From assembly GCA_022496805.1 (NCBI GenBank), contig CM040091.1, positions 13,816,336-13,880,335 of the forward strand: a stretch of 64,000 nt of DNA, in the 5' to 3' direction. Below, piece after piece: positions 32,100 through 54,000 of this stretch. This DNA comes from Pohlia nutans (taxonomy: Eukaryota > Streptophyta > Bryopsida > Bryales > Mniaceae). Below the pieces are notes generated by a model. That model was given only the letters and a program-made list of their open reading frames with translations, ran no database searches and was not told where the DNA came from. The number at the start of each line of letters is the position of its first letter. The first letter of the stretch is position 1. Both the position numbers and the translations under genes were made by a program.

Positions 32100-35000
32100 T
32101 ATTGGTTGGGAGAGTGGCGTTGTAAATTTATGGAGGATCATTATTGGATGGTAATGTTTGGTTGTTTTCTATGCGTCGTTTGTAGAGGAGGATGGACATA
32201 GCATGATGAATGGCGATGACGTTTATATCGTTCATGGTACTTTTTATTTGATGTTTAGGGATTTTGAAGGTAGTTTTGAGGATTTTTATTGAGGGGATGT
32301 GTGTAGATGCGCGGGCTCCAGCAGTAATAACTAGTAATGGGGCGACTTTCCATCCTTTGGATGCAATATCGTCTAAGAGAGGATGGTACTTTTGGATTTT
32401 GTTAGTGATGGTATCGGGGGAGAATCGGTCATTGCAATATGTAAATTCAATGAATTGGATGGTGAGAGATGGATCGGGAGTTGTGGGAGGAACATGTTGG
32501 TAGGAGAGACCTTTAATGCATAGAATGTCAGGTTTGAAACGTGCATTACATTGGCATCGGGGGGTCTCACATGAGCAGGGGAGGAGCCAAGAGGGAACTG
32601 TGTTATCCGGGGAGTTGTTTTGGAAAATACCAACATTCATGAGTGTGTAGCATCTTGATTTGTTAGAGGAGATGAGGAGTTTTCGCAATGCCCAAACAGC
32701 CTTATTATGGCGTTTGGTTCGTAGGGCATGTATATGGTGATGGTTGCATTTGAGGAGGACGTGTAGCCAAGTATCAGGATCTAGTGAGTTGCATATGGAG
32801 CAAGTAGCAGAGGGGAAGCGTGCTATGCCAAAGAACAGTTGTTTCCTGGCATTACCCATATATTGTCCAGTGCGAAATTTGAGTAGGCAGGTTTTTTGGG
32901 CATCTGAAATGTTTGGGTTGGTCCAAAATGCATTTGAGAGATGGTTGTCAAGGTTGTTGTTAGAAACCCATTTGTCTAAGTTGGGAAGTTTTTTGGTGAT
33001 GGTTTTTAGATTGGTTTCGAGGTCATGTTTGATTATATATTTTTCAAGGGATCTAATGGGTCCTTTGTCAGGGACCGCTTCCATAGATGGCCAATCAAGT
33101 TTTTGGAAAAATTATGGGGTGGAGTGTGCAAATTCATGTGGAAGTTCGGCATTCTTGTGGTCGAGTGCTCTGCCAGCATTGGCGAGTTTGTCTGCTGTTT
33201 CATTGCCTTCTATCTGGGCATGTGCTCGAACTTTGTAAATATGTGTTGGTTGGGAGCGTTGTTGTAGGAGGTTAACCATTAATGTAAGTATGGTTTTATC
33301 TGCATGGTTGTTGTGAAGGGTGGGGTGCTTGATTTGTGTTTGGAGAAGGTATAGGCAGTTAAGGCAATCTGTAAATATGTAGGCTGGTTCATGTTGGTAA
33401 TCTGTAGTTAGTAGTAGGAGAGTATCGTAAAGAGCCATGAGTTCGGCACGTAGAATGTTTTGGTGGCCATATAGGCGTTTAGAGATTTGGATTTCAGGTT
33501 TGAGAGGGTTGTAAATTCCATATCCAGCAGTTTCACGGATCCATTCACCAGTACTGTTTTGCTTGGGTGGTTCGAAGGAACCGCCAGTGTAGTAGCTTTG
33601 TTGGGGAGGGAATTTGAGGGGGATGGTGGTGGCGTAGTTAGGGAGGTTGGGTATGGGGAAGGAGGTTGTCATGGGGGGAGGTGGGTATGTGAAGTGATGC
33701 CAGCTTTTGTTTGGTTTGACTGGGGTGTTTGGGGGAGTAGGGGGGGCAGGTTGAAATGCGGCATGAGCAATGTTTAGAGTAGTAGCGGTATCTTGAAGAG
33801 TAGAAATTTGGTTTTGTGTGCCAAAAGAGGAAGTTTGGTGATGTATGCAAAGAATGTGGGTGGCAAGTGGCTCCAAACGTTTTTTGTGGAGTTCGGGGGG
33901 AAGGGTAGGTTCTTCATATGTGAGAGTGTCAGGTTGGAAGTGGATAATGATATGTGTATCCGGGTAGGGACCAAGGAGAGGGGTGTGGTTTTGGTACCAG
34001 TTAATATCGGGAACTGTAAGAATGGTAACGTTCGTGGAATCTTGTTGGGCAGCTAAACGGGCCCAATGTATGGCTTGTTGGGTTGCGAGAGCGTTGTGAG
34101 GGTGGGCATATCCAATGCCTTGCCATTTATAGTGGAAGGCTGGGCCAAGAGATCCGAATATTGTATCACGGAGGAAAGGGGAATGGTACATGGTGAGTAG
34201 TGTTGAGCAGGTGACTGGGGAAGAAAAATAGGAGTGGGTGATGCCAAAAGTAGCAATGAGAGAGTTGAGAAGGGTGGAGGGAAGTGTGTGATTGGAAGCT
34301 TTAAGGGGATCTGTTTTAGGGAGTCTATATTTATATCTTTGATAAAGCCATACTACTTCGGTTTCGAAGGATTGGGGAGGGGGGGAAATTGAGTGAGTTT
34401 TAGTTTGGGCAATTTTATATTGGCGCCAGAGCCAATGGAGTCGAGTGACCGGGATGGTAATAAGATGTTTGCCAGATGATTCGTAAATGTGGGCTTGGTC
34501 AGTTTGTGTTTGTATGGTTGGTTGGTTAATTTGTATGTCTTTTGAGGGATTACAGTCTTGTGTGTAAATGTAGGTATGGGGGAGGAAAGTGGGGGCTGGG
34601 ATATGTCGTATATCACGTGTTTGTATTGAGGTAAAGGATCTTTGGGCAAGAGTGGTATAGTGTTGGTGTTGTATTTTTGTAAAATAGGAGGTAAGGAGGG
34701 TAGTGTTGTGGGAGATCACTAGTGGTAGATTTAGTGGAAAGAGACGGCTTTGTGTGAGCCATTTGGTGTACGAGAGATTGGAGGGAAGTGTCCATTGGCA
34801 GAGGTATGTGTCGTATGTTTTAGAGATGTTATATTTATCTGTGGTTTTGATGGATTTGTGAAGAAGGATAGAGCTGATTGGAAATTCTTGTGGGTTGTTG
34901 GGGATGTCGGTAGGGGGGAGGTGTATTTGAGGAGGAGGTAGTAATTGGAGTGGAGGCACAGGGGGGGATTGTGGGGTGATAGTATGATTTATGGTGTGAT

Positions 35001-36099
35001 ATTCGGGCTGTAGGATGCGGGAAGGTGGATGTGTCTGACATGGATTTGGGCAGGTATTGTTGCAAGCGGGCTGGCAGAGGAGTGTGTAAGCTATATTGAG
35101 GGCAGATTTAATTAGTTTGGTGGGAGTAGCGTGGTAGTGTTTAAAGTCTTGTGGAGTCATGAGTTGGTGGCCATTAGGGAGTGTTAGGTGCTTAATTTCG
35201 GTGATGTTGTGGAGAAGAAGTTTGTGTAGTAATTTAATGGAGAGATCAGGGTTAAGGTGTGGAGCTAGAATGGGGACTTGGGTCATCCATGCGTTTTCTA
35301 ATGGGGTGGAATGTAAAAAGAAGTTTTCATGAAGGTTATTGAGATGGGCGCCACCAGTTGAATGGAGGAGGTGTATTGTTCGGGTGATGGGAGATCTATA
35401 GCAATGTTGTGGTGTGATTCGAGGTATGTTTAATGCTCCGCCGTGTTTAGCGAGGATGTATTGGATAAGGCCTTTATATATGGTCCCTAGTTTCCCAGTA
35501 TCGTTCAGGGCAGAGCGGAGTTGTTCTCCTATACATCGGAGGTAGGCATTTTTTAGGGAGAAGGCTTGGATACCAAACAGTGCATGGGGGAGTTGTGTGA
35601 TGATATTTGCTGTGCTTTTTGGCAGACCACATATTTGTTTCTTGGTAGCAATTATTTTCTTGTCTAGTTTTTTAATGGTTGGGAGTGAGTATGGAACTGC
35701 ATAAAAACTGTAGGCAATGCCAGCTTGAATGACAGTGTCCAACATGTTGATTTTTTGTTTCATTGTTGTTGGGCAGAGTGTAAGTTGTTTGCATTGTCTG
35801 ACAAGTTTGGTGGTAGTAGTGTGTATTTGTAGTTTCCATTTGAGTGATGGAACCAATTGGATCCCGAGGTAAGTGTATGGTTCATTTTGGTGGAGGATTG
35901 GAATTGGTTGGTTACGATAGTGTATGTTGTGTTCTTGTAGCCAAGATTTAAAGGCATTTGGGTTATGCTTGGATTTGTTTGGACAGCCAGTTACAGCGCA
36001 TTTTGAGATTCCAAGATCCATGCCGGCCCATTTGCAGTATTTATCAAGTTTGTTGAGTTGTAGTTGTAGAGAGGGGGCATTGTTTGTGATTATGGCTAA

Positions 36100-36114
36100 A
36101 TCATCAGCGTACGC
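36100..36114 (-). other. RT catalytic motif AYADDLA
   Basis: The minus-strand codons for YADD are intact, in the frame downstream of the 36289-36292 base loss. They therefore lie in a different frame from the upstream RT motifs. Confidence 0.9.
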
Positions 36115-36288
36115 GGCCGTGTTCAGGGTGACATTGGAGGTTTTGAAAGGATATCCGTTATGGCCTTGTTGGAGCCATCGGAGTAATGGTTCAAGAAATA
36201 GGATGAATAAGTATGGGCTAAGAGTATCTCCTTGGATGGTGCCACGTTGAATTGGGATTGGTTTTGTTTGTCCAAGTGTGCACCCGTG

Positions 36289-36292
36289 AAAA
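36289..36292 (-). other. Single-base frameshift in LINE ORF2
   Basis: Upstream RT (…GNIYSQSSTIF) and downstream RT (GTIQGDTLSPYLF…YADD) are in adjacent frames that meet at this A/T homopolymer. Loss of one base explains it, and the total ORF2 length becomes a multiple of three if one base is counted in. Confidence 0.8.
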
Positions 36293-38166
36293 TGGTGCTG
36301 GATTGTGAGTAAATGTTTCCAATGAGAGCTACTGAGTCGGTGGGGTATCCGAGGTCTTGAATGATTGCAAGGAGACGGGCATGGTCTATGGAGCCGAATG
36401 CATTTTTAAAGTCAATGTAGAGGAGATATATATCTTTTTGAGAGATATGGGCGTCTTCAAGTGCAGCTGTAAGAGTTTGTAGTTGTCGAGATGTGCAGCG
36501 TTCTGCTCGAAAACCTTCTTGGCTATCATGTAAAATTTGGTGTTTTTCACCATAGGCGGAGAGTATGGATGTGAGGGTGCTAGTGAAGAATTTGTAGATC
36601 GTATTAGCTAGGGCAATGGGTCTATGGTTGGGAAGGAGGGAGGGGTTGCCTTTTTTGTAGAGAAGAATTGTGAGGCTAGTTTTCCAGGATGCTGGGATTT
36701 GTTTTTGTTTATAACAATGGGTGAAGAATAGGAATAGTAGGTGGTGGAAGAGTTCTGGGAGGTGTTTTAGGATACTGTTGGGAATTTTGTCTGGTCCTGG
36801 TGTTTTATTGTTAGCAAGGTGTTTGAGACATAGGTCGTAAGTGTTTCTGTCAAAGTAAGTATGTAGGGATATGTGTGGGTGTCCGCGAGCATCAAGAGTG
36901 ATGCCACCTATGTCATGCCAAGGGTATTGGCGTACTCCACAAGTGCATTGTGGGGGATGGGAGGGTAGGAAGTAACAGGTTGGTACGGTTGGTCTATTGC
37001 TGATGGATTGTTGGATGTGGATTTCATTTGCGATATCTTCGGGGTGTGTGAGGATTTTATCAAAACGATCCGTGAGAGAGTCGAGGGGAGGAGTATCTAG
37101 ATTACGAAAGACTTTGTTGTTGATTTTCCTTGGACTTTTTTCATATAGTTGTCTATACTTAGAAATGGCCTTTTTGACACATTCTTTAGTGTATTTAGTA
37201 GTAATTTTTCGGGCGGCTTTATTGGTGGTTTTGGCAAGAGTTGAGAGGTCATTGATCCAATCATCTATGGAGAAATCTGGAGGGGGTGGGGGGGGAATGT
37301 GGCTATGAGATTGTAATGTTTGTAGTATAGGATGGGAGCGCCAATTGGGCGTGTTGTTGACTATGAATAAAGTTTTTCGAAGAATGTGGTATAATTTGAG
37401 GTGTTTTTTCCAAGGTTTGTGTAGTTTTTTGGGGAGGTATCCACCTTGCATGGCAGTTCGAGTGGTCAAAGTCGAGAGAGGGGGTGCACTGCATGTACTT
37501 TCAATAGTGTTGGAAATTTGTTGGATGAGTTGGTCCAAGGAGGTACAAGCCATTTGCCATTGTTCGGGTGTTAGATCTGGTTGTGTTAGTGTGGTGGTCA
37601 GAGAACTGATTTGTATGGAGTTTTCTTCTAAAAATTTATGAAGAAAATTTTGGATTTTGTCAGGGGGAATGGGGTTAAGAATTCGTGGAGTTGGGGGTGG
37701 GATTGTGGGCATGGGCCGAGCTAGGAGTGTGTTTTGGGGAAGATGTAGTGTGATTGGAAAGTGGTCAGAGTTGAGATCTAAGTCTGGATTGGTGGTGGCA
37801 GTGTAGGACAGGTTATTTGGTGTATTTGTATAGAAGCCGTCAATGAGGCTGAGTTGGCTATAGTTATAACCACCTTGTCTACTATAGGGAGAGTTAGAGG
37901 GGATATATGTAAGTTGTAATTGGTTAGTGAATTCTTTCCATTGATCGTCTTCTGGTTGTGGGGGGGTATGGCCGGTAGCACTTTGTCGACCGATGAGGGC
38001 AATATCTCTATTAAAGTCACCATAAAGTATATGTATGTGGTGTGGGTGTTGAAGAATGTGTTGTTGAATAAGTGGTATTAGTGGGAGGTCATTTTCATGG
38101 GAGGGCATATATATGTGAATGAGTAGTAGAGGTTTGAGTGGTAGGTTTTTTATTGTGAGGATTTGT

Positions 38167-38424
38167 TATTGAAGGTAGAGAAGATTGCACAAGGCACACA
38201 CACAAACACAAGGAATGCGTAGAAAGAGATAATCTTTACTCAAAGGCCTTCCACCTTAAGTAGTGTACACTAGGAGGTCACCATGGACAAACCATATGGG
38301 ATAACTCATCACAAGGACACTCTAGAGATCAGCCCATGCCTAACCCCTCCTCCCACACACCATTATTTAGCACCCGTACGTCTTTGGCTTCTAGCAATAC
38401 TACGTTGCATCAATTACCTCAATA
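38167..38424 (-). repeat. copia 3' LTR
   Basis: 258 bp, TATTGAAGG...ACCTCAATA as read on the plus strand; identical by eye to 43337-43594. The polyprotein stop codon (38400-38402) lies inside this LTR. Confidence 0.95.
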
Positions 38425-41400
38425 CTCCCACTTTGCGTAGAGCCAAAGCCTCTAAGTCCAAATGCTATTACTAATCGTTGGTGTCGGTCTCTACAAAGAC
38501 CCTTTGTGAGCACATCCGCCACCATGTGCTCCGTTGGGCAATACTCCAAATGTATAACTCCCAATTCCAACTTCTCCCGAATGAAGTGGTATTGCACATC
38601 AATGTGCTTCGTGCGTGAATGATGTGTAGGGTTCTTTGCAAGTGAAATGCACCCTTGGTTGTCACACATAATCGTTGTAGCCTCACCTTGTGTGCAACCC
38701 ACATCCACCATTAGTTGCCTCAACCAAATGGCCTCCTTCGTGGCATGGCTCGTAGCCATGTACTCGGCCTCCACCGTTGATGTCGCCGTGGTTTGTTGCC
38801 GCTTGCTATTCCACGACACCGCTCCCGATCCGACCTTGAACATGTAGCCCGTTGTCGATCTTCGATCGCTCGTGTCTCCCGCGTAGTCCGCGTCACAATA
38901 GCCGCTCAACACAATGTCTTTGCCTCCAAGACACAACTTCACATCGCTTGTGCCCCTCAAATAACGCATGATCCTCTTGACCGTCATCCAATGCATCGAG
39001 CCCGGTCTCGCCATGTGTTGACTCACCACGCTAATTGGATACGCAAGGTCGGGCCGTGTCGCAATCATCGCATACATCAACGACCCCACCGCTTGCTTGT
39101 ATGGCACCTCCGCCATCGATTTAGCCTCCATCGCATACTCCTCCTCCGAAAGCTTGACGAGCTTGGAGTTTGCATCCAATGGTGTTGCCACGGGCTTACA
39201 ATCCTCCATCCCGAATCTCTTGAGCACGTCCATCACATACTTGCCTTGACTCATGGTGATAGTGCGTGTAGCCCTGTCTCGCACAAACTCAACACCAAGA
39301 CAAAAGTGCAATTCTCCAAGATCACTCATCTCGTACTCTCTCTCAAGCATGCCTTTTAATGCATTCATTAAACTCATGAGGCTTGCAAGAATGATCAAAT
39401 CATCAACATATATGATCACAATCACCACATGTTGCCCGTCTTGCATGAAGTAGAGACTATGATCCGCAATGCTCCTAGTAAACCCGTGTGCAACCAAGAA
39501 CGTGTCAATCTTTTGGTACCATGCTCTTGGAGATTGTTTCAACCCATACAATGATTTTTGCAACTTACAAACAAGGTGCTCATTACCTTGTTGCACAAAC
39601 CCCTCAGGTTGCACCATGTAGATGTCCTCCTCCAAATCGCCATTCAAAAATGCGGTCTTCACATCCATTTGATGCATCTCCAAGTCCAAGGCCGCTCCAA
39701 TGGCAAGAATGCATCGAATGGTGGTGAACTTGGCCACGGGAGCAAATGTCTCGTGAAAGTCCACGCCATGCACTTGCGCGAACCCCTTGGCTACTAATCT
39801 TGCCTTGTGACGCACAACAATACCCGAAACATCCCTCTTTGTCCGAAACACCCATTTGCAACCAATGGGGTTGCGATCCTTTGGAATGGGAGTTAATTGC
39901 CACGTACCGTTAGCAATTAGAGAGTCGTACTCCTCTTGCATGGCGCGCTCCCACTTGACCGCATCCTCACCTTGCATGGCTTCTCGAATGGTCAATGGAC
40001 CATCCGATAATGCCACATTCGCATGCTCGTCCTCCACTTGAGGGAAGATGTGGTTCTTCCACCATTCTCCAGGTGGCTTGCGCGATCTCTCGGGGTACCG
40101 CCGCTCGCTTGAAGAAACTTGCTCCTCTTGCGTGCCCTTTGCGCTATTCTTGGCCTTTGAGCTCGATGGCGCTTCAACAACCTCCGTGTCGCCAGCTTCG
40201 TCATCACTGTCATCATCACCTACATCAACAACACTAGGAGACTTGGAGGGTGTGTCCACCAAAACGTCTCCACTACTCCCACTTGGACCAACCTCCAAAG
40301 GAGCCTCCATCGTAGACTCCTCACAAAATGTCACATCACGTGACCGAATGATCTTCCTCGTGTCCACCGACATGAGTCTATACGCCTTGGTACCTTCACA
40401 ATACCCAAGAAACACACATTTCAAGGCCTTAGCCTCGAGTTTCGTCCTCCGTTCGTCAGGAACCTTCGCATATGCAATGCATCCGAAGATGCGCATGTGT
40501 GCAACACATGGTTGCCTCCCACTCCACGCTTGCTCCGGCGTCATGCCTTCAACCGCGCTTGTTGGACACCGATTGCGTGTGTATACCGCATTCACCACCG
40601 CTTCCGCCCAAAGGTCCAACTTCAAGTTTTGAGCGTGCAACATGCTCCTCGCCATCTCTACAATGGTGCGATTTGCGCGCTCCGCAACTCCATTTTGTTG
40701 AGGCGTGTACGGGGCCGAAGTTTGGCGTGCGATGCCTTCATTCTTCAAAAGCTCGTCAAATTTCTTGGACATGTACTCGCCGCCATTGTCCGACCGAAAC
40801 ACCTTGATCTTCAACTCGGATTGGTTCTCCACCAATGTCTTGAACTCCTTGAACTTCTCAAAGCACTCACTCTTGGCTTTGATAGGGTAGAGCCATATCT
40901 TCCTTGAAAAATCATCGATGAAAGTCACAAAGTACTTGCAACCTCCCATCGATGTGGTCTTCATGGGGCCACACACATCCGAATGCACGATCTCCAAAAC
41001 TTTTGTGGCCCGTGTCGCCCCTTCACCCGCAAATGGCAACCGTTGTTGCTTGCCTTCAATGCAACCTTCACACGTGAATGTAGAAGCATCCACTTTCAAT
41101 TGATGAAGGTCCATACCGCTTACCATGCCGCGTAGTGTCTTCACACTCTTGATGTTCAAATGGCCAAGTCGACGATGCCACAACGCCAACTTGTCGTCCT
41201 TCAAGTTTGAATGCGCCAACGCCGCCGATTCCTTCGAATGCACCTTGGAGAACTTGATGTGGTACAAGCCCTCGTGTTCTTCAATGATGGCCACCTCATC
41301 TCGACTCGGTGACAACACATAACACCTCTTATCACTAAACTCAACCCTCAAGTGCTTTGCCACTAATTGCCTCACCGATAGTAAATTTGCCGTTAATTTG

Positions 41401-42515
41401 GGAACGTGGAGGACATCTTGGATAGTGATTGTCTTCACAAGACCCCTCACCTCGGTGTCTACAACAATTTGGCCCTTGCCAACGGCCTCAAGCACCGTAT
41501 CATCTCCCAAAATCACTCTCCTTGGATTAATGAGAGCATACGAATGAAAACAAGTTTTATGTGGTGACATGTGGCTTGTAGCCCCCGAATCAACAATCCA
41601 ATCACTCGTACTACCATTGCACGATACATTGCTTGCCATGTTTGCATACTCATCACCAACCTCAATCCAATCACTCATGCTTGCATCACCCTTGATGCCA
41701 TCGCTCATGCTTGCCTCATATCTAGCCGTAAATGCGTACTCATCATCGTCACGAGTTTTAGTGTTGTTTGCACTCTCCCCTTTCTCATCCCTCTTGCGTT
41801 TGAAGCAAAATTTGGCAATGTGGCCCTTCTTACCACAATAGAAGCACACCTTGTCGCTTGAGCTCCCACCGCCTCCATTCTTGAATTGCTTCGCCACGAG
41901 TGCCGCTCCATCTTCTCGAGACTCGTTCTCCTTTCGCCGCGAAAGCTCGTGCAACAACCGTGAGGTCACATAGTCCAATGTGAGCTCCGTAATGGGTCTT
42001 GACTCCATTGCCACGATGAGGTACTCGTATGATGATGGAAGGCTCTCCAAAAGTGTCATCACGATGTCACCATCCGTAACCGACACGTCGCAACCGTTGA
42101 GTTGATCCGCGAGAGCTTTGACCTTGTTGATGTGCGCCAACATGTCATCTTCTTCGCCCATCTTGATGGTGAAGAACTTGCGCCTCAAAAACAAAATGTT
42201 GGCCAATGTTTTCGCTTCGTGAATGTTGCAAAGCTTGGACCATGCTTCCGCGGGTGTCTTGCACGAACGAATGTGCGCAAGTTGCGAATCCGCGAGGTTG
42301 AGTGCCAAAATGGCAAATGCCTTCTTCTCCCTCCTCGTGTACGCTTGCATGATCCTAGGATCCGTAGAAGAGAAAGGAGGTTCCTCACTACCCTCGACAA
42401 TCTCCCACAACTCCTTCTCGGCCATCACCATCTCCATTTTGAATTTCCACAAGTGGAAATTCACCCCATCGAACTTGTCCACGACCTTGGGACCCTCACC
42501 CTCAAAAGATGCCAT
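38400..42515 (-). CDS. Ty1/copia Gag-Pol polyprotein (1,371 aa), intact
   Basis: ATG chosen at 42515 (an upstream GTG at 42524 is in frame but unlikely). Order: UBN2-type Gag (residues about 1-200), CCHC knuckle CFYCGKKGHIAKFC (about 224-237), aspartic protease WIVDSGATSHMS (about 306), GAG-pre-integrase with HRRLGH and CEGC, integrase core with HSDVCGP, FIDDFSR and YTPQQNGVAERANR, RT with KARLVAKGFAQ, QMDVKTAFLNG, SLYGLKQSPRAW and YVDDLII, and RNase H with YCDADYAGD, VEAEYMA and the C-terminal HSRTKHIDVQYHFIRE. The protease-RNase H order with integrase before RT defines Ty1/copia. There are no stops or frameshifts, so it may still be functional. The stop falls within the 3' LTR. Confidence 0.95.
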   Translation of the reverse strand: MASFEGEGPKVVDKFDGVNFHLWKFKMEMVMAEKELWEIVEGSEEPPFSSTDPRIMQAYTRREKKAFAILALNLADSQLAHIRSCKTPAEAWSKLCNIHEAKTLANILFLRRKFFTIKMGEEDDMLAHINKVKALADQLNGCDVSVTDGDIVMTLLESLPSSYEYLIVAMESRPITELTLDYVTSRLLHELSRRKENESREDGAALVAKQFKNGGGGSSSDKVCFYCGKKGHIAKFCFKRKRDEKGESANNTKTRDDDEYAFTARYEASMSDGIKGDASMSDWIEVGDEYANMASNVSCNGSTSDWIVDSGATSHMSPHKTCFHSYALINPRRVILGDDTVLEAVGKGQIVVDTEVRGLVKTITIQDVLHVPKLTANLLSVRQLVAKHLRVEFSDKRCYVLSPSRDEVAIIEEHEGLYHIKFSKVHSKESAALAHSNLKDDKLALWHRRLGHLNIKSVKTLRGMVSGMDLHQLKVDASTFTCEGCIEGKQQRLPFAGEGATRATKVLEIVHSDVCGPMKTTSMGGCKYFVTFIDDFSRKIWLYPIKAKSECFEKFKEFKTLVENQSELKIKVFRSDNGGEYMSKKFDELLKNEGIARQTSAPYTPQQNGVAERANRTIVEMARSMLHAQNLKLDLWAEAVVNAVYTRNRCPTSAVEGMTPEQAWSGRQPCVAHMRIFGCIAYAKVPDERRTKLEAKALKCVFLGYCEGTKAYRLMSVDTRKIIRSRDVTFCEESTMEAPLEVGPSGSSGDVLVDTPSKSPSVVDVGDDDSDDEAGDTEVVEAPSSSKAKNSAKGTQEEQVSSSERRYPERSRKPPGEWWKNHIFPQVEDEHANVALSDGPLTIREAMQGEDAVKWERAMQEEYDSLIANGTWQLTPIPKDRNPIGCKWVFRTKRDVSGIVVRHKARLVAKGFAQVHGVDFHETFAPVAKFTTIRCILAIGAALDLEMHQMDVKTAFLNGDLEEDIYMVQPEGFVQQGNEHLVCKLQKSLYGLKQSPRAWYQKIDTFLVAHGFTRSIADHSLYFMQDGQHVVIVIIYVDDLIILASLMSLMNALKGMLEREYEMSDLGELHFCLGVEFVRDRATRTITMSQGKYVMDVLKRFGMEDCKPVATPLDANSKLVKLSEEEYAMEAKSMAEVPYKQAVGSLMYAMIATRPDLAYPISVVSQHMARPGSMHWMTVKRIMRYLRGTSDVKLCLGGKDIVLSGYCDADYAGDTSDRRSTTGYMFKVGSGAVSWNSKRQQTTATSTVEAEYMATSHATKEAIWLRQLMVDVGCTQGEATTIMCDNQGCISLAKNPTHHSRTKHIDVQYHFIREKLELGVIHLEYCPTEHMVADVLTKGLCRDRHQRLVIAFGLRGFGSTQSGSIEVIDAT

Positions 42516-43594: not shown

Positions 43595-45281
43595 TTTGTA
43601 AGTAGGGAGACATGTTAGTTGGAGATGGGAGTTTAGTGATATTACCAGGGTAAGTGTATTTGTTGTGAATGAGGGTGAGCATTCCCCCTCTAGTGGGTGT
43701 GTATGGGAATCTTTGTTGTATACAGCGAGTTAAAGAGTGAGTGTTGCTAAAGAGAAGTTTGTATTGGGGAAAAAGCTTTTGAATGTAGCGAGTAGATTTG
43801 TTTGCTGTGAGTTTTGTTTCTTGAATTGCAATTATGGCTGGGGGTTTTTGTGTGTGGGTAATGAGAGTTTGAATACTAGGAAGGGTTGTGTTAAGTGAGG
43901 AGGCATTCCATGAAATAATATGTGTAGAGGGAGCGGACGTGTTTATTGGAGGTGTTGTGTGAGGAGGGGGATCGGGGAGTGATGGGGGGTGTGTATACTC
44001 CGGGAGTGGTTCGGCAATGCGGAGAGATTCTTGGAGGAGTTGGGGAGGGAGATATGGAAATTGAGTAGAAAGAGTTTGGAGGGTTGGAAGTTCAGAGTTT
44101 TGGTGTATGAAGTGATAGAGGTCTTCGTGAATGGAGGGTGGGGGGGTGATGAGATGTTGGTGGGTGTGCAAAAATTGGGTATATGGGTGTGGTGTGTGGA
44201 TGTGTCTTTCGGGAGGATTTGGGAGTTTGGCTAGAGAGTTAAGCAATGTTGTTGTCCAATATGGGTGTGGAGTTTGTTGGAGGGTGTAGTTGCATATGGT
44301 AGTATCGGGGTGTATTGTAACGATGATGGCGAATAAAAGCCTAGGTGGAGGGTGGACATTATTATATGAGATGTATTTGTAGAGGTGGGGGAATATTCTA
44401 ATGGAACGTTGGTGATCTTGGTGACATGGTGTTAATAGAGGAGCGAAGGTTTGTGCAAGGTGTTGGTATTCTGGGTGAAATTTTATTGTACATGGGACAA
44501 AGTAGGTTTTAGCTCTATGCTTGTGAGTAGTAGGAAAATGGGCTAATACATTGGGCATTGGTCCCGGGTTGGTTTCAATGTCGCCACCTAACAAAAGGAA
44601 TAGGTAGTTATGTGTTATGTAATAAGTGAGAGTTTGTTGAAGGGGTCGACGTCGGGATGTTTTATAGATGACGTGAAAGCGAATAGGGTAAGAGGTGGTA
44701 ATATAGGGTAGGATGGGATGTGGTGAAGATGAGAAGTAAAGGAAGTAGGTGGTGATGTTGGGTGTCCAATGTGGGGTGGTGGTTAAGAAATTTGTTTGTT
44801 GGTAGGGTAAATTATATCTATATGTGGTAAATATGGTGGGAAAAGGTTGGTGGGTGATGTTTGTGAGTGTGTTGGATATGTTTGGAGGAAAAGGTGGAGG
44901 AATAAGATATTGGTAGGTAGTATATAGTGTAGGTATGTATTTGGTAAGAATAGTGTGGACAAGGCCGTTAGGCCGAGTCCAATTGGTGTAAAGAAGGGGG
45001 TTTTCGTATTTCGGATGGGTAAATGAGAAGGGGAGTGAGAGTAAATGAGCTAGATTGAGAGGGGCCAGGGGAGGAATGGAAGTTTTGAGTGGGGAGGGTG
45101 GAAAGTGGATGCTGGAGGTGTGGTTATGGTGGGGGGATGGGGGCAGATGGGTACATTTACGATGGGTGAATGGAGTTGGGGGGAATTGAACAGTGGGTGT
45201 TATAGAGGGTTGGGTTGTGGATTGGGTGGGACAGGGAGTGTTGGGGCTATTTTGGGGAGATGTGGCAGGGTGACAGGCTGG
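43595..45281 (-). pseudogene. LINE ORF2, second segment: Pro/Thr-rich region, 2A motif, APE N-half
   Basis: Open on the minus strand from the gypsy insertion (45281) to the copia insertion (43595) with no stop in frame. The first 230 codons are rich in Pro, Thr, His and Ser. The 2A-type motif LLLGGDIETNPGP sits at 44597-44559. After it come about 220 residues of unassigned sequence, then the APE endonuclease starts with IISWNASSLN (about 43910) and IAIQETKL (about 43830), which supply the Asn and Glu of the exonuclease-endonuclease-phosphatase fold. The copia element interrupts the APE domain just after MSPYLQIL. No mutation was seen in this segment itself. Confidence 0.8.
44559..44597 (-). 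other. 2A-type ribosome-skipping motif in LINE ORF2
   Basis: Codons for FLLLGGDIETNPGP. The consensus D-V/I-E-x-N-P-G-P is complete and preceded by the usual Leu-rich stretch. In 2A sequences the bond between the last Gly (44564-44562) and Pro (44561-44559) is not formed, so an N-terminal product of about 530-570 residues would be released from the nuclease-polymerase part. Confidence 0.85.
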
Positions 45282-45285
45282 GTTC

Positions 45286-45762
45286 TGTCATGGTGATTTT
45301 TCCGCTCACATAGGTATCAACGCATATGAACTACTTCGACGACGGTATTAGGACTCGAACACATAATCTACATTTATTGCAACTATTGCATTCGTGCATT
45401 GGAACTAGATACTATTCTACTACTAGCGGTTAGCTTTGGCAGTTAGCGGTTAGGGTTAGAGTGCATTCATGATTGTGGAGTCGTGACGGTTATCCGATAA
45501 CCGACGGTTGAGGAATAGAGATGGAGGATTTAAGGCGGGGAAAGTGGTGATTTCGTGGCCGAACTCATGTGGGAGTGGCCGGAGTGACGGAGGAAAGTGG
45601 GTGTAAAATCAAAGAAAGTGTACGCAAGATTATAAGTGAATAAAGTGCTGAATTAGCAAGCTTCTCTGGACTTGTGTGTGTGTGCGCAAACCCATGTGTG
45701 TGTGTGAGTGGGCTCAGTGTATACATGCGAGATTCCGTGAGGAAATTATTTTGCTATTCACA
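45286..45762 (+). repeat. gypsy 5' LTR
   Basis: 477 bp, TG...CA termini. It differs from the solo LTR 29158-29616 mainly by an 18-bp or so indel in a GT-rich stretch near 45680-45710 plus a few substitutions. Confidence 0.9.
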
Positions 45763-45765
45763 TCT

Positions 45766-45783
45766 TTGGTGCGGTGAGCGTGG
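45766..45783 (+). other. Candidate gypsy primer-binding site
   Basis: TGGTGCGGTGAGCGTGGA begins 3 bp after the LTR with the expected TGG. I cannot match it to a specific tRNA from memory. Confidence 0.35.
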
Positions 45784-45856
45784 AACGAATTTGACCTTCA
45801 AATTAAATGAAATTGAAATATGAGCTTTAGTGTAACACGCTTGGGATCAAAACAAC

Positions 45857-46135
45857 ATGGGTAGGTTGTACGAGACTTATGATGACGAAGAGGAAACAGT
45901 CTCAAGAGTAGAACTCCAGCCTACACCTCCGAGAAATTTATCTGGTCTCATTGAAACCATAAGATTTCTTGAGATGAAATTTGCTCCATTAATAGATACT
46001 TCTGATGCAGCAAAGAGGTTAGAGTTATATCATGAGAGATTACTCAATGACACAGAGATTGCTGAAATAATAGAATCAGTGATTTGCGAAATGGGAATAA
46101 TAATCTGGCAGTTGACACTGAACCGAATCAGATAG
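45857..46135 (+). CDS. Small open frame upstream of gypsy gag (92 aa)
   Basis: ATG in a reasonable context (aacATGGG). The product is acidic at its start (YDDEEETVSR) and helical in character (LIETIRFLEMKFAPLIDTSDAAKRLELYHERLL). It is in a different frame from the gag-pol frame, and about 260 bp separate them. It may be a leader protein, an N-terminal part of Gag displaced by a frameshift, or chance. No family recognised. Confidence 0.4.
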   Translation: MGRLYETYDDEEETVSRVELQPTPPRNLSGLIETIRFLEMKFAPLIDTSDAAKRLELYHERLLNDTEIAEIIESVICEMGIIIWQLTLNRIR

Positions 46136-46397
46136 ATAATCAAAGCACGGACGTTAGTTGATATAGTGTAGTAGATTATACACTCTCGACATTGACATGA
46201 TGCCTGGGACTCATGGTTTTCCTTCGATCGTGTGGAATTGAAACGAAAATATCTGTACGAGTGCTAATTTGCATACGGTCCGTTGTTGTGCATGCTCGCG
46301 AGTAGGTGCCAAAGTCAAAACTTGGCATTTCATGAGGAGTTATTCACATCTTTCTCGGGAACCAGAAATCAAGTCATAAAGTTAAGGGGACGAAAGT

Positions 46398-49300
46398 ATG
46401 ACAATCATACCGGCATTCGCAGGACTGGACGGGGAAGATCTGGTGGAGTACATAAAGAGCTTCAAGCGAGGCTGCATTTGCAGCGGTTTTGTGACGCCGG
46501 CTTCATGGGCTGAGCTGCTACCCACTTTTCTGGACAAAACAGCTTCGACATAGTACACCCGGCAATCGGTCACGACAAAAAAGAATTGGGAGTTACTGGA
46601 AAAAAAGCTCCTTAATACTTATCAAATTACCGAATCATACCAATCATTGGTAGCATCCTTGGGCACTTTGCGGCAAGGTGATGAGGAGAGCGCGAGAGCA
46701 TATACGGAAAGGGTCCGAGAGCTCGGTAAGAAGATAAAGAAAAGCTTGGCTGCAGAGATGAACGGAGCATTGACATCAACAGATGAAATATCTGAAGTCG
46801 AAATGAAGGGCATTGACAGCATGGTGCTTCGTGGATACATCACTGGATGTACTCCACACATACAACAGCACTTGAATTACTTGAGGCCCACTACACTCGA
46901 GGGAGCTGCGGAATTGGCATATCGACAAGAGGCAAGTGTTCGGAACGTGGTGCGATCCCTCGGCATGGCTCTGACACCTCCATGTACCATGCAAGCACAA
47001 CCGATGCCGGTGTTGACACTTGTGCAACCAGCGCCAATACAAACAACGTCAAGCACGGTCGACACTATGCTGCGACAACAAGAGAATACGTCCAAGCAAT
47101 CTTCATTAACAATGCTTGCTGCACTGGGGCGTGTGACGCAATCCATTCCCGCGGTCGGGGCGCAACCGCAACTACCGCAGGCTACGTATGTGAAAGCACA
47201 AAACGGTGATGAAGCTAATACTACCCCCATGATATCTGATATGACTGCTTTGGCAAATCAGATGCAGGCATTGGCAATGTGCTGGTTGTAGAGCCAAAAG
47301 CAGGACGAACGTGGGTGTGGAAGAAATAACCACGACGGGGGCCGACAATATAGGGGCGAAGAATATCATAACGGGCCAAGGCGTAGTGAGCAAGATGGTA
47401 GGTATGAAAGTAGAGGAGACGGGCCGCCATGGAGAAATAATAACTCATACCACAACAATGGAGACCGATCGTATGGAGGTGCGAGATCGGATGAGCGTAC
47501 ACCTGAGAGAAGGTACGGCGGTGACGGTCCAAGAGGAGGTGCCACTTCAAATCATGAGCAACGCGGAGGGAGACCCTTCACTCCTCAGAGATCAGTGGGC
47601 TTCAATGTAACGTGTTATGAATGTGGAGAATTGGGACACGTGCGTTATGACTGCCCGAAAAGACGAGCTCCGCCCGCAGATGAATCAAAAGGGAAGCAAG
47701 CAGAAGTCAATATGCTGGAACAAGTGCTCGACTCACCATCAGAGATCGAAGACATAATGGAATCCATGGCTGCAAGCGGCGAGAAAAGGGGAAGGCCAAG
47801 TGGTGATCGAGTTGATCCGAAAATTAGGTCAAGAAGGAAAAGATCGAAATCTGTGGGACCGAACAACGAAGCAGTAAAAGGCAGTGTTGTGAAGCCGCGA
47901 AGGAAAATAGGGATTGACGATATGCTGATAAGTAAAGGTCAAAGAGAGTATTCGATCACCGAGGACCTGTCCATGCAACAAGCTCATATAACGATTGGAC
48001 AACTAGTGGCACGGTGTCCGTCGTTACGAAGAGAGTTGCGATCCGCGGTGAGTACCAGGAAGAAAAGCAAGACGGGTTATACCTATGTAGCAACAAAATG
48101 CGGAGATGACTTACAAGCACCACGAGTAGTAGCTGAGATTAATGGAGTTAAAATACCAGGCTGCCTAGTGGACGGCGGGTCCTCAGTCAATGTGATGTCG
48201 AACTGGTGTCTAGAAGAGATTGATTTAAAAGTGAACCGACCATCCGCATACCGATTACGAGTGGTGGACCAACGAAGTGTGAGGCCATTGGGACAATTGG
48301 ATGACGTTGCGGTGGCTGTGAATGGCGTCACGGTGAAAATAGAATTCCAAGTTCTGGACATTTCTAGTACAAAGGGCGGTTATCCCATAATATTGGGGCG
48401 TCCGCGGCTCAAGCAGGTGAGAGCTATAAGCTATTGGAATCGAGGGAAGATGACAATCGGTCCAAGGAGCAACCGAGTAGAGCTCAGCGTGAACTCAGAT
48501 AGCCCGTCTGAGTCAGATAGTGAGTCTGAAACTTCTAGCTCCGAATCATGGACCGGGGGCTCTAGCTCGAGCTCGGATTATGACTCCGAATGTGAAGCAG
48601 AAGTGTTTAGCATGGAAGCATTTCCACAAGCACTGAAGAGCGAACATCGTGAGTTCGGACCAAACAAGCCATTGGCGCGTGACCCACAGCATGAAGAAGA
48701 AGTACTGTCAAAGGTGCAATTGGGGCCCGAGCTAAGAGAAGAAGAACGAGATGAGCTACAAGCATTGATCAGAGAATTCAGCGACATATTTGTAACCAAG
48801 CACACCGATCTACCTGCTATGAACCTCGAAGAACACAAAGTGGAACTCGTAGAAGGGGCAGTACCAGTAAGAAATCGACAGAGGCGTTTGGCCCCGAGCC
48901 AAGTGGAAGTTCTAAGGCGTGAGTTAGATCAATTATTGGAAGCGGGTTTTATTATTCCCGTGACAAATTCGACCTGGGTCTCACCGGTAGAGATTGTGCC
49001 CAAGAAAAACGGTAAGTGGCGGGTGTGCGTGAATTATAAGTCACTGAACAAGGTGACGAAAAAAGACCGCTTTCCTTTGCCGTTTATCGACGAGCTACTG
49101 GATGAAGTCTCGGGGCACGAGTTCTACTCGTTTTGTGACGGGTATTCTGGTTACCATCAAATTAAAGTGCGAGAAGCTGACATACCCAAAACAACGTTTA
49201 CCACGCCATGGGGTACGTACGCATACACTCGAATGCCGTTCGGCATGAGCAATAGCTCGGGGACTTTCCAGCGTGTTCAAATGGAGATCTTTAGACCATA

Positions 49301-49711
49301 CCTCGGCAAATTTGTGCGCGTTTTCCTCGACGATTTCAGTGTATATGGGCGACGATGTGATCATATAATGCAGTTAAGATTGACGTTCGAGAGATTAGCC
49401 ATGTTCCAAGGATCTCTGAGTCCGGAAAAATGTAAGTTTGGCTTTCGTGAAGGCGTACTTTTGGGACACCTTGTATCAGTTGATGGTATCAGAGTGGACC
49501 GGGGGAAGGTGGCCTCCATTGCAGCACTTAGAAACCCGGCCAATTATGAAGAAATGAGGAAATTATGGGGCAAAGTGAGTTATCATAACAGGTTCATGGA
49601 CAATCTTGCCGAAACCGGTCGACCCATCAGTAGGCTAATATCTCCAAAAGTGAATTTCGAATGGAGTGAGAAATGTGAGCTAGCGTTTGACTGCATACTC
49701 GACGAGCTATA
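46398..49711 (+). pseudogene. Ty3/gypsy gag-pol, two stop codons and truncated after RT
   Basis: One frame runs from ATG 46398 to the 3' LTR remnant, interrupted by TAG at 46551-46553 and TAG at 47289-47291. Gag: MTIIPAFAGLDGEDLVEYIK..., NTYQITESYQSLVASLGTLR, RARAYTERVRELGKK-type helices, then an Arg/Gly-rich tail. Zinc knuckle: CYECGELGHVRYDC (47610-47655). Protease: PGCLVDGGSSVNVMS (about 48155) and PIILGRPRLKQ. An acidic Ser/Glu/Asp-rich linker follows. RT: RRELDQLLEAGFI, KWRVCVNYKSLNKV, FPLPFID, FCDGYSGYHQIK, TPWGTYAYTRMPFGMSNS and FLDDFSVYG. It ends in the RT thumb/connection (FEWSEKCELAFD), then joins LTR sequence. RNase H and integrase are absent. Both stops are TAG, as expected from G-to-A change of TGG or C-to-T change of CAG. 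Confidence 0.85.
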
Positions 49712-49808
49712 CTGGACTTGTGTGTGTATGCGCAAACCCATGTGTGTGTGTGAGTGGACTCAGTGTATACATGCGAGATTCCGTGAGGAAATTATTTTGC
49801 TATTCACA
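49712..49808 (+). repeat. Truncated gypsy 3' LTR (97 bp)
   Basis: Corresponds to the last 97 bp of the 5' LTR (45666-45762). The deletion junction shows only CT microhomology, suggesting illegitimate recombination. Confidence 0.9.
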
Positions 49809-49812
49809 GTTC

Positions 49813-50789
49813 TGAGATAGTAGGGGAGTAAGATGGGTCCGGGGGTGTTCGAAATGAGGGGTGGTTATTTTTTGAGGTTGGGGTGTGGCTGAAGGATGGT
49901 AAAGGCCAATCAGGGGGAATTGTAAGTCAGGGAGAGGCTGGGAGCAAGATAAATGAGTGAGAATTTTGAAGGAAGGGTTGGTAATTGTGAGGACAGGTAG
50001 TGAGTTTGAGGGAGAAGGCTGTGTGGCATTCAACAGGGCATATTGAATAATGAATGTTGGGTAGGTAGGGGGCAGGGGCTTGGCAAATTGGGACAGGTAA
50101 GTAATTGAGGAGGGTAGGTATGGTAAATAGGAGAAAGGTGAGTGGATGGGTAAAATAATTGTTGTTGGGCATAGATAGGTATTTGTGGGTGGGAAAATTG
50201 TGTTATGTGTGATGGAGAAGGGGGCCAGGGGCTGGGTATGTGCTGGACAGATGATGGGCTGGCCTTGGGAGTATTGGTAACTTGAAGAGGAATCTAGATG
50301 GGGAGGGCAGATTGATTGGTGAGTGGGTTGAGAGAGATTAACCCAACTGTGTATAGAAGGCCAGTGAGCAAGCTCTGAAAGTTGAGGTGTGACAGGACAT
50401 GGCAAGGACAGTGAGCTCAATGGTAAGGCATGATAGAAAAGAAGGATAGAGGTCAAAAAGTAGAAGCTTAGAAGCTTGACAGATAGCCTGGAATAATGTA
50501 GACAAAATATTCTCCGAGTTTGGAGCTTTGATATAATGAGAAAAGGGGTCCAGATACATAGAGTGGGGGGAAATAAGGGAGTATGTCTATTTGGCGATAT
50601 ATGGGCTGGGTCCCAGATAGAGAAAACAATAAATAATAAAGTAGCTATAAGGGCCAGGAGCAGGCTGTTTGAAAGGAGACTAACCATCATGAGTATGGGT
50701 GTTGGAAAGTTGGGGGGGTGGGAGGGACCCTTCGGGAGGTCCTTTGGTGATAGCCGAAAATATACCGCCGATTTGAGCACTGTACTCAT
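49813..50789 (-). pseudogene. LINE ORF2, first segment: N terminus with hydrophobic segment
   Basis: The frame is open from an ATG at 50789, but the likelier start is ATGATG at 50690-50685, which overlaps the ORF1 stop (TAG 50682-50680) in the string ATGATGGTTAG. From that start the protein opens with MMVSLLSNSLLLALIATLLF, a signal-peptide or membrane-anchor-like stretch (50690-50613). The remainder is Pro/Ser/Thr/His-rich with no domain I recognise, and the frame runs into the gypsy insertion at 49808, where it ends with a stop in LTR sequence (49800). It continues in frame at 45281. It would be made by reinitiation or leaky scanning after ORF1. Not known to be active. Confidence 0.7.
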
Positions 50790-52836
50790 GGGAGGCAGAG
50801 GTCATGAGTTGAAGCTGTTGGATCAGATAGTTGTGGTGATGAATCTGTTGAGCAGAAAGATGTGCGGTTGAGGCTTCGACTTTGGTGGTGGTATGGGAGT
50901 TGATGACGTTGCCCAAGGAGGTGATATGTGTGTGGAGACGACCCTCCACCGCTTGGATGGTGACTTCGAGTTGATCTAGCGTTGGTGGCTGAGGAGCTTC
51001 ATTCTTGAGGGCAGTGATTGCTTCGGCGATGACTTCGCGGGTGGGTCGTTCGTCTTGTGCACGGGCCGTGGCAAAGGGGTTTGCCCCAGCCAAACTCTTG
51101 TTGTGCGGGGCAAAATCAATGAGCTTACCAAGGCAAGGAACGCCGCGGCGGTTGCACCAATGGGTGTATACCGCGGCGTTGAGGCAACGGATGGTTGCCA
51201 CTCCATCATGTCGGCCCAAGGAATCTCCTTCCGCCCTGTTATAAGTCACTGCAAGAACATTCTTGGGTGCTAACATTTTGTGCAAGGCAGCGGTAACTTG
51301 GATCTGAGAGTATTCAACGGGAAGTCCCCGTACTAATATAGAAGTGGTGAGTGCCTCGGGGGCATTAGGATTGGAGGAGCGGTCTAGAGAAGAGGAAGTG
51401 ATAGAGAGATGGTGGCCAGAGAAAAGGATGGGGGTGTCTAGGAGATACCGTTTGGTAGTGTCAGAAGCTACCGTGATTTCCGCCGATTCGAGTTCTTTGG
51501 TGCGTTTGGAAACTCCTATGAACTCCAAGTTGGCTCCCGCCTCGTAGCCTACACGGATGAGTTCTCCAAGAAGTTGTCTCGAGGTATATCTGGCCAAAAT
51601 GGGACTTTGAAGTTCGACTCTTCTGTTAGCAGCAGTAGAGGGAAAATCAAAGCCCTTTTCAACCTTTCCAATAACATAGGTGAGATCTTGTAGCTGAAGA
51701 GTAAATATGCGTTCCCCTTTAAGAAGGGCAACGCCATCGGTGCTAGGGTTGAGAAGATCAACCTTGAGAAATCCTAACCAATTTTTGGTTTGCGGGTGAA
51801 CTAAAGCTGACACAGGCTCACGAAATCGGTTAGCGAGAGGGATGCACATAGAGTCAAAACGGGCAAGAGCAGCGGCTTGGACCTCCGGTTTTTTCATTTC
51901 GTTGTATCCGAAATCAAAGCGAATGACTAATTGGTGAGTGTGAGAGAGACCGGTGTAGATATCAACATCTATTCCAAGCGGTATTTGGGTTAGATGGTAA
52001 AATTGTCCCGGGAGTCCATCCGGCCTTGTGGCTGGGTAGAGCAACTGAGGGACGTGCGGAAAAGAGTGGCGGCAAGAGTGGTACTCTTGTCGCTCTGATT
52101 CAGGCATATTAGAAGAGGCAATGTTGGAAAAACCATACGTAGAAAATTCTGGTAAGCCTCTATGGATGTTTAAGGTCTCATGGACGGAGTAAGTTAGCCA
52201 TAGAAGGTTGGAGAATTCACTAAAATTGGGGGAAGCTATGGGATTCATAGAAGATTGGTCACCTGGGAGAGGAGCTGGGGAGCTCTGGTGGAGGCCAGGC
52301 GGCGTAGAGCCTGGGAACACTGGGAGTGCTGAAGTAGATGCTGTTCTTGTGAACTCCTTCTCCCCGGGTGGTACAAGGCCGAATTGGCCTTGGGGCGTGC
52401 TGTCAGGTAGGGCTGCAGCTGGACCTGAAGACAAGACAGGCAAGGTGGGATCGGGGTTGGTCACCTGATTCGCACCTGTCGCTGGAGGGGTTCGGTAGGA
52501 GCCGGCAGAGTAGGACGGCCTCTCAGCAGTAGAGTCGTCGCTGTCTAGATCCATGAGCAATCGGCGGCGTCGCCTTGAGCGTGTGGACGGGGTTGTGTCT
52601 GCAGTGATTGAGGCTGGGAGATTTGCAGCAGGGGCGACTGCCGCGGCAGAGCCGCTGGCTATGGAGGGGGCCATAATGGCGTCGGTGTGTGCCTGCATGG
52701 CGAGTGAGGAAAGTTGCACAGTGACGCGTTTCTTGTGCGAACCAGAAGATCTGGTTTGAAGAGCGCGGTTCGAGAAGGAAGGTTGGGAATCTTCTGATAG
52801 ACTGACTCTTCTGATTGTTGAACGCATGCGTGCCAT
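50680..52836 (-). CDS. LINE ORF1 protein (718 aa), RRM-like domain
   Basis: ATG at 52836 (MARMRSTIRRVSLSED) is chosen because a basic, structured protein begins here. The same frame stays open another 460 codons upstream to 54228, but that part is low-complexity Pro/Ser/His sequence consistent with a C-rich 5' leader. Features: Ser/Arg-rich N terminus with RSRRRRR, a Pro-rich linker (about 100-180), a globular region (about 200-480), an RRM-like domain (about 497-580: TSILVRGLP as RNP2, GVATIRCL as RNP1), then a helical, possibly coiled-coil tail (about 590-700) ending THDG. LINE ORF1 proteins of this kind bind the element RNA as a chaperone. The stop overlaps the ORF2 start. No inactivating lesion seen. 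Confidence 0.7.
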   Translation of the reverse strand: MARMRSTIRRVSLSEDSQPSFSNRALQTRSSGSHKKRVTVQLSSLAMQAHTDAIMAPSIASGSAAAVAPAANLPASITADTTPSTRSRRRRRLLMDLDSDDSTAERPSYSAGSYRTPPATGANQVTNPDPTLPVLSSGPAAALPDSTPQGQFGLVPPGEKEFTRTASTSALPVFPGSTPPGLHQSSPAPLPGDQSSMNPIASPNFSEFSNLLWLTYSVHETLNIHRGLPEFSTYGFSNIASSNMPESERQEYHSCRHSFPHVPQLLYPATRPDGLPGQFYHLTQIPLGIDVDIYTGLSHTHQLVIRFDFGYNEMKKPEVQAAALARFDSMCIPLANRFREPVSALVHPQTKNWLGFLKVDLLNPSTDGVALLKGERIFTLQLQDLTYVIGKVEKGFDFPSTAANRRVELQSPILARYTSRQLLGELIRVGYEAGANLEFIGVSKRTKELESAEITVASDTTKRYLLDTPILFSGHHLSITSSSLDRSSNPNAPEALTTSILVRGLPVEYSQIQVTAALHKMLAPKNVLAVTYNRAEGDSLGRHDGVATIRCLNAAVYTHWCNRRGVPCLGKLIDFAPHNKSLAGANPFATARAQDERPTREVIAEAITALKNEAPQPPTLDQLEVTIQAVEGRLHTHITSLGNVINSHTTTKVEASTAHLSAQQIHHHNYLIQQLQLMTSASHEYSAQIGGIFSAITKGPPEGSLPPPQLSNTHTHDG

Positions 52837-54000
52837 AGGTACTGTGGGGTCATCAAGACAGTTAGAAAATTGAAATATATGGTGGGAAGAACAAAGTGAG
52901 AGGAGGTGGGTGGAGGTAGAAAGGTACCTGGTGGTGTAAGAGAATGCGCAGTAAGTGCACAAGTTACTGGCGGTATTTATAAGATTGGTGTTTGGGATGG
53001 GCCGAGTGTGGACGTGGGAAAAATTGCTCAAGTTACGGAGAGTAGAGTATCTTTGGTAGAGTAGGGGGGTGCGAGTTGACCAAGGAATCTCGGGAGTCAT
53101 GAGAGGTAGGTGAGAAATTTTTGGGATGGGAGTTGGTGAGGATTTTGCGGGTGAGTCACCGTAGCGGTGATTATGTTGGTTGTTGCGAGGGAAGGAAGGT
53201 TCCAAGGGAGGAGCGGGAGGGATTTGTCCCGGCGGCGGGACTGGAGGCGTCGACGTAGGTCTGTTGCAGGAAGAGAGATTGTCGGGAGGCGGCGAGCGGT
53301 GGTGAGTGGATCGAGTTGCGGTGGATAGGGAGCACCGTTGAGAGGATTTGTTACTGGTAGGGGGTAGAATTAGGGGAGAGGGTAAACGTTGGGAGGTTCG
53401 GAGGGTGAGAATGTTTCGGAGGCTGACGGGATGGAGCGACAGGAGGTGGGAGGTGCGAGATGCGGGTACGAGGGAGGTGCGAAAAACACACAGCATTTGC
53501 AAATTTTCGTTGGGAGTCCACGGCAGGCACGGATTTGAGGTGTCAGGAGGGCGCAGCGGCAACGAGTATTGCAGAGATTTGTGCGAGCAAGGTGGAAAAT
53601 TTAAAAGGGTGAAGGAATTTAAAGAATAAGCTTTGTTTGGTGGATAATCGTGGAGAATTATGTGCGTTTTGGTGTGTACTGGAAAAAGGATTGTGAGATT
53701 TGGTGCAAGGCAAGTGTAAGAGGATGTGGAATAATAAAATTGGTTGTGTGGAAAAATTGGAAATGTAAGCCAGATGTGGCTGTAGGTGCAATTTCTGGGA
53801 CTGAATGTTTGGGAGGGATGGCTTGTGGGAGGCAGATGTGGCCTTGGGGGAATGTGAATCGCATGTGTGAGTTGGGAGGCAGTGCAATTTGTGTGGGAGG
53901 TGTGAGTGACACAGATTAACAAATCAGGAGCACAAGATGTGTGTGTGTGAATTTGTGGTGTGGGGATAGTGAATGATTGTGTAGAAGATAAAGGAATATG
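52837..54000 (-). other. LINE 5' leader region
   Basis: Strongly C-rich on the minus strand (plus strand full of 'gtgtgtg', 'gggagg') with few stops, continuous with the ORF1 frame. The bias fades between 53980 and 54010, which I take as the approximate 5' end of the element. No promoter motif identified. Confidence 0.45.

Follow-up and report, generated by a model that had tools for sequence, protein, structure and literature searches.

A probable Dualen/RandI-type LINE family with two endonucleases and a CAPAM-like domain in a streptophyte genome

The 64,000-nucleotide stretch of DNA analysed here (the window) carries on its minus strand a long interspersed nuclear element (LINE) that is best explained, with a probability of about 0.87, as a degraded copy of an abundant Dualen/RandI-type LINE family whose host is a streptophyte and probably a moss. 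By its sequence, the family has an open reading frame 1 (ORF1) and a giant ORF2 with a 2A motif, an apurinic endonuclease (APE), a reverse transcriptase (RT), a CAPAM-like domain, RNase H, an R2-type finger, and a restriction-like endonuclease (RLE). Its copies, as judged from their sequences, have a conserved 3' RNA, short non-poly(A) tail repeats, and duplications of 12-14 bp at different sites. The host, the CAPAM-like domain, the 2A motif, and the 5' leaders are the new features of this family of Dualen/RandI architecture. A land-plant family that keeps both nucleases together with a cap-methyltransferase fold makes the role of each nuclease testable, and, if the host is a moss, this could be done in plants whose genetics are well developed.

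APE and RLE are treated as alternative solutions for one step of LINE insertion, and Dualen has been read as evidence of the way in which one took the place of the other (PMC4640811, in part). Dualen is described from green algae (PMC4438587 and PMC8226300, both in part). An earlier sequence-only reading of this DNA held that dual-nuclease LINEs occur only in green algae, which is outdated since LINE/Dualen is also listed for all cryptophytes but Guillardia (PMC12747079, in part). No report of Dualen in land plants was found in a literature search of partial coverage.

Domain architecture of ORF2

The APE, RT, RNase H, finger, and RLE motifs named by the sequence-only reading are all present on the minus strand, in or close to the positions it had given (Table 1). 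Among the window frames, RVT_1 (in two pieces), RNase_H, and Exo_endo_phos_2 all scored above the Pfam cut-offs. The central claim of that reading, APE and RLE in one element, is borne out by the motifs, by Exo_endo_phos_2, and by the R2-type fold predicted for the RLE. The expected ORF2 of about 2,870-2,900 codons was likewise recovered: in the copy on contig C13, ORF2 stays open over 2876 codons and ORF1 over 1149 codons, both counted stop to stop. The CAPAM-like domain, 2A motif, structured 3' RNA, and 5' leaders had been overlooked.

The N-terminal half of the APE in the window (43587-45287) has no Pfam match, and the exodeoxyribonuclease III model reached E 1.4e-4, under that model's cut-off. 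In the C13 copy, Exo_endo_phos lies just under its cut-off (22.2 vs 24.5 bits). The RLE piece matched nothing in Pfam or NCBIfam, and single-sequence and profile searches of the PDB gave nothing relevant; structure prediction was therefore used. The predicted structure has the R2 RLE fold, which scored far above all other folds, and the next-nearest folds, all PD-(D/E)XK, belong to viral cap-snatching endonucleases. The stretch 32300-32550, for which the sequence-only reading had asked for PD-(D/E)XK support, sits in the region with this predicted fold. Within a set of 124 proteins, RLE matches were confined to P0001, P0053, and P0111. P0111 belongs to the same RT lineage and has RNase H, finger, and RLE (E 6e-13 in that set), and its sister P0086 has an APE by Pfam. 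Most of the listed relatives are too short to reveal both nucleases.

An APE-only plant LINE of the L1 type, followed by an unrelated or chance finger protein with no RLE, would account for the stop between the RNase H frame and the finger/RLE frame in the window copy and for the silence of Pfam, NCBIfam, and the PDB sequence searches on the RLE piece. Against it, the boundary that is stopped in the window copy is open in the C13 copy, where a single frame covers RNase H and finger/RLE, and the R2 RLE fold stands well above the others.

Pfam found PCIF1_WW between RT and RNase H. The PCIF1/CAPAM fold extends over about 230 residues and includes the FxSP and FGSxG motifs. NPPF is the catalytic motif in PCIF1. 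In contrast to PCIF1, the domain has HPHN at this position in the window (inside 34093-34113) and HPPN in C13, and it is fused inside a LINE ORF2; some distant relatives have NPEY or LPPY. Lacking NPPF, it is more likely to be a 5'-end- or cap-binding or structural module than an active methyltransferase, as far as its motifs suggest. No literature linking PCIF1 to retroelements was found in the literature search.

The first RNase H aspartate is glycine in the window copy and tyrosine in the C13 copy. The motif could be read in 24 of 30 RLE loci, with 22 Asp, one Asn, and one Gly, the last being the window copy itself, and a dead RNase H as a family trait was therefore rejected.

Upstream of the APE, the StopGo consensus D(V/I)ExNPGP is matched by the predicted 2A motifs DVEQNPGP in C13 and DIETNPGP in the window, and the first Met of the window ORF2 piece comes directly after the motif. 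Two further 2A motifs were present in the 124 scanned proteins, DIEPNPGP in P0095 and DVEANPGP in P0120 (Haematococcus). Odon and colleagues are said to have described 2A sequences in APE-type LINEs in 2013. A 2026 survey gives no evidence of natural StopGo use by plant viruses (PMC12846837, in part).

Copies in the host genome and selection

Scoring gave 122 matches to the RLE piece in the host genome, window copy included, all with E < 1e-146 (5315 first-look candidates) and beyond chance, and 87 matches to the C-terminal 506 aa of ORF1; both figures count matches, not copies. In a comparison of the C13 copy with the C19 copy, the ratio of nonsynonymous to synonymous change (dN/dS) was 0.094 (APE), 0.052 (RT), 0.140 (CAPAM-like domain), 0.141 (RNase H), 0.072 (finger and RLE), and 0.60 (pre-2A segment, 63 codons), figures that are orders of magnitude at most because dS is saturated. 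In several comparisons of C13 with the window copy, dS was not computable. For the RLE region, 13 copies with 322 codons were compared in 78 pairs, and among the pairs whose dS exceeded 0.02 the median dN/dS was 0.107. The value of about 0.07 for finger and RLE between diverged copies also argues against a chance finger protein behind an L1-type LINE. The window copy is young relative to C20, the two differing in the RLE by dN 0.012 and dS 0.005.

Kinship of the reverse transcriptase

Against PDB sequences, the RT scored 94-100 bits with vertebrate R2, 56-58 with L1, and 50-54 with Bombyx R2. The RT search matched 189 proteins, and Haematococcus lacustris and Parachlorella kessleri are among the 120 listed. 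A quick tree, built from 68 rows after removal of 22 near-duplicates, put the 63 family rows on one side of a branch; a careful tree had 25 rows, 20 of them of the family. In both trees, the Haematococcus and Parachlorella rows lie inside the lineage of the element and the two R2 rows lie outside it, so that the RT is not placed within R2. P0003 was tried as a close relative and falls outside the lineage in the RT tree. This protein of 2805 aa has HPHPGP at a possible 2A place, an RT, a zinc-binding RT finger, and a C-terminal OTU protease.

The approximately unbiased test rejected a grouping of L1 with P0001 and the three rows nearest to it (p-AU 0.001), with L1 represented by one human row on a long branch. 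The sequence-only reading had named a firm RT grouping with L1 or RTE as grounds for giving up its claim; for L1, the one of the two represented in the trees, no such grouping is seen. With this rejection and the excess of vertebrate R2 over L1 in bits, though Bombyx R2 does not share in it, the L1-type explanation of the element is highly improbable. One clade of the family with the APE-only L1 and Tad-like rows had p-AU 0.058.

An element of the R2 clade that acquired an APE would explain why R2 is the best PDB sequence match of the RT and why the RLE is R2-like. On the other hand, both R2 rows stay outside the lineage, a single clade of family and R2 is disfavoured (p-AU 0.024), and the copies lie at differing sites with duplications of 12-14 bp and not at one rDNA site. 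We know of no R2 with RNase H, a CAPAM-like domain, or 2A. An R2-clade origin is therefore very unlikely.

Several points weigh against the Dualen/RandI-type interpretation. Its kinship to named Dualen is indirect, as the RT was compared with no labelled Dualen sequence. Lineage support is 97 (SH-aLRT) in the quick tree and only 81/87 in the careful one, and Bombyx R2 falls below L1 for the element RT (54 vs 58 bits). The L1 row groups with the R2 rows in both trees, which makes the deep branches unreliable. The RLE model has a mean pLDDT (predicted model confidence) of 71, and the RLE call depends on the predicted fold, the motifs, and P0111. The 2A motif is degenerate in the C19 copy (NLGP), and ORF2 has no evident start codon, the roughly 235 codons before 2A (44583-45287) being Met-free in the window copy. 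Saturation of dS affects the copy comparisons, and the closest two ratio-giving pairs of 327-codon copies gave 2.57 (L009-L010) and 1.41 (L014-L015) on very few changes; as would be expected, such values fit unconstrained young copies decaying after insertion.

3' RNA, target sites, and leaders

The 3' motif was found in 28 of 32 loci, and 21 sequences chosen from them fold into a junction and a terminal hairpin. On four of five measures, none of 500 shuffles reached the observed covariation; on the fifth, 141 of the 500 did. The block is conserved across subfamilies with only about 67% of RLE residues in common, and is thus probably a template signal. An Rfam scan of 31700-54700 gave two chance-level matches, both within the LTR (long terminal repeat) elements, and none at the 3' RNA. 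Tails are (TA)n or (CTAT)n and not poly(A). In a second subfamily (several of L024-L038), an antisense tRNA B-box-like stretch, GGGAATCGAACCC, lies in the 3' untranslated region (UTR) about 100-300 nt past the RLE piece; it is perhaps a short interspersed element, and ARAGORN found no tRNA gene in it at 9 loci. The 3' UTR of the C13 copy (L040) has two long A tracts (4168-4206 and 4938-4986).

Target-site duplications of 12-14 bp, at different sites, were found in five of eight copies examined; the other three have no 5' motif in the fetched stretch. All five duplications start with T after G, and this initial T may belong to the tail. Each of these five copies, the window included, has one insertion-specific leader of about 20-75 nt between the duplication and the common start (the loci besides the window are L056, L057, L039, and L059). 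Leaders differ even between close copies, with 20 nt in the window and 34 nt in the 98.6%-identical C20 copy. Three of the five (C8, C20, and C6) were searched in the genome, with reversed-pattern controls giving 0 each. For the C8 leader, no other place was found with up to 2 mismatches allowed. The C20 leader has one, on C14, with 2 mismatches in 30. The C6 leader, with up to 3 mismatches allowed, occurs at 274 places, counting its own, and is therefore derived from a repeat.

The C14 match (37 nt, 94.6%) lies 208-244 nt upstream of what looks like the start codon of a coatomer gamma gene, a possible transcript start. This would suit leaders that are 5' transductions, in which element RNAs began at host promoters upstream of the parent copy. 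Such transductions are, however, expected to nest or to be common to copies, whereas the nearly identical window and C20 copies have unrelated single leaders at the same element start, and the 1.6 kb retrieved at the C14 match contained no element start motif. Transduction is accordingly a rather unlikely source.

Proposed mechanism

In the mechanism proposed here, 2A would free the APE-to-RLE protein from the N-terminal segment. The ORF2 protein would bind the 3' RNA in the manner of R2, nick the DNA, and start reverse transcription at the nick. Tentatively, and at slightly less than even odds, the first-strand nick may fall to one nuclease and the staggered cut of the second strand to the other; alternatively, each might do both, or one might mainly bind or act on another substrate. 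RNase H would clear the RNA template. At the 5' end of the element RNA, the RT may continue onto another RNA, which would give the new copy its short insertion-specific leader.

The same element could also use one nuclease to cut target DNA and retain the other as a binding or RNA-processing module. Most LINEs need one nuclease only, and target-DNA cutting by both is here a proposal; against the one-cutter view, both catalytic sets are kept, and diverged copies show similar constraint on the two domains. This one-cutter arrangement is a serious possibility, though it has appreciably less than an even chance. In a bolder and improbable variant, the CAPAM-like domain would hold capped host 5' fragments, possibly cut by the RLE, onto which the RT jumps. 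Such cap capture, if true, would give each new copy a fresh leader and one nuclease a job on the RNA side.

Relation to known systems

Dualen/RandI: The element resembles these LINEs in having APE and RLE together, RNase H, short non-poly(A) 3' repeats, and an RT in a lineage with green-algal elements. The repeats are (ATT)n or (CTATTT)n in RandI (PMC3747384, in part) and (TA)n or (CTAT)n here. In contrast, the present element has a land-plant host, 2A before the APE, and a structured 3' RNA. The CAPAM/PCIF1-like domain is found in it and in unnamed relatives of its lineage, and goes unmentioned for Dualen in the portions of the literature covered.

R2: A structured 3' RNA is the template signal in R2. 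The finger and RLE resemble R2 in fold and order, as do the RT, by best PDB match, and the 3' RNA. The element differs by its APE, RNase H, CAPAM-like domain, ORF1, and 2A, and the flanks and duplications differ among the five of eight copies that are readable, unlike the single 28S rDNA site.

L1: The APE and the ORF1/ORF2 plan are L1-like, and plant L1 also has RNase H (PMC4640811, in part). However, the RT does not group with L1, an RLE is present, and the tails are not plain poly(A).

The window copy and its surroundings

The 5' end was set at 54570, as the C20 copy is 98.6% identical over 2152 nt inward with no match beyond, and the 3' end at a TA-rich tail at about 31917. The minus-strand open frames of the element have 1226, 567, 680, 1097, and 327 codons; nested inside are two more frames, one of 1374 codons from Copia and one on the plus strand from Gypsy. 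The copy is broken by the TAA, by two overlapping frames in the RT, and by both insertions. ORF1 has no Pfam match in the window copy, and its C-terminus looks coiled-coil-like by eye only.

Table 1. Features of the element in the window
Feature	Position	Strand	Details
Whole non-LTR retrotransposon copy with two nested LTR elements	31917-54570	minus	C20 comparison, 3' tail, duplication
3' target-site duplication	31903-31916		14 bp, one base different from 5' copy
Structured 3' RNA	31918-32048	minus	four-helix junction, then terminal hairpin, (TA)n tail
Finger and RLE	32131-33111	minus	KPD...EFT...KxxKY
RLE motif KIQKY	32386-32400	minus	
RLE motif IEFTY	32437-32451	minus	
RLE motif KPDIL	32521-32535	minus	
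R2-type finger CX2CX9HX4C	32704-32802	minus	then RxKRHN
First residues of finger C-X2-C-X9-H-X4-C	32788-32802	minus	start of finger
In-frame TAA	33112-33114	minus	between RNase H and finger/RLE pieces
ORF2 piece: RT 3' half (YADD), CAPAM/PCIF1-like domain, RNase H	33115-36405	minus	Pfam
RNase H motifs	inside 33184-33594	minus	
CAPAM/PCIF1-like methyltransferase-fold domain region	33556-34608	minus	
RT motif YADD	36100-36111	minus	
ORF2 piece: APE C-terminal half (GDFN, SDH), RT 5' half	36126-38165	minus	Exo_endo_phos_2 2.5e-7, RVT_1 8.6e-11
APE motif SDH	37755-37772	minus	
APE motif GDFN	38010-38024	minus	
Nested Copia element, interrupting APE	38167-43594	minus	identical 258-nt LTRs; 5-bp duplication TTTGT
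ORF2 piece: pre-2A segment, 2A, linker, APE N-terminal half (WN, QETK)	43587-45287	minus	
APE motif IQETKL	43809-43826	minus	
APE motif ISWNASS	43896-43916	minus	
2A/StopGo-like motif DIETNPGP	44559-44582	minus	upstream of APE
Nested Gypsy-type LTR element (gag, protease-like, RT)	45659-49808	plus	ends approximate; 104-nt direct repeats, 95%
ORF1 open frame	50680-54360	minus	1226 codons, stop to stop
Insertion-specific leader	54571-54590	minus	20 nt, between duplication and common start
5' target-site duplication	54591-54604		

The streptophyte host proposed by the sequence-only reading agrees with LEAFY SAM-domain matches and with a light-harvesting exon in the window. LEAFY is a marker of streptophytes. 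Its SAM domain had 14 matches in the host genome and none in 14 control genomes; the controls named are prokaryotes, and plants and algae are therefore not separated by this result. The chlorophyll a/b-binding exon (57804-58331, plus strand) has chain 9 of 7xqp and 8htu as best solved matches, which we take to be the moss photosystem protein LHCB9. Taken together, the LEAFY matches and this exon indicate a streptophyte, probably a moss.

The sense strand of the element (32131-54360, minus) is strongly G-poor and C/A-rich, with 6.5-16.4% G in three measured stretches. Two chlorophyll a/b-binding exons would, we infer, belong to one gene (54642-58334), which, with its apparent first-exon ATG at about 54642, would sit head-to-head with the element.

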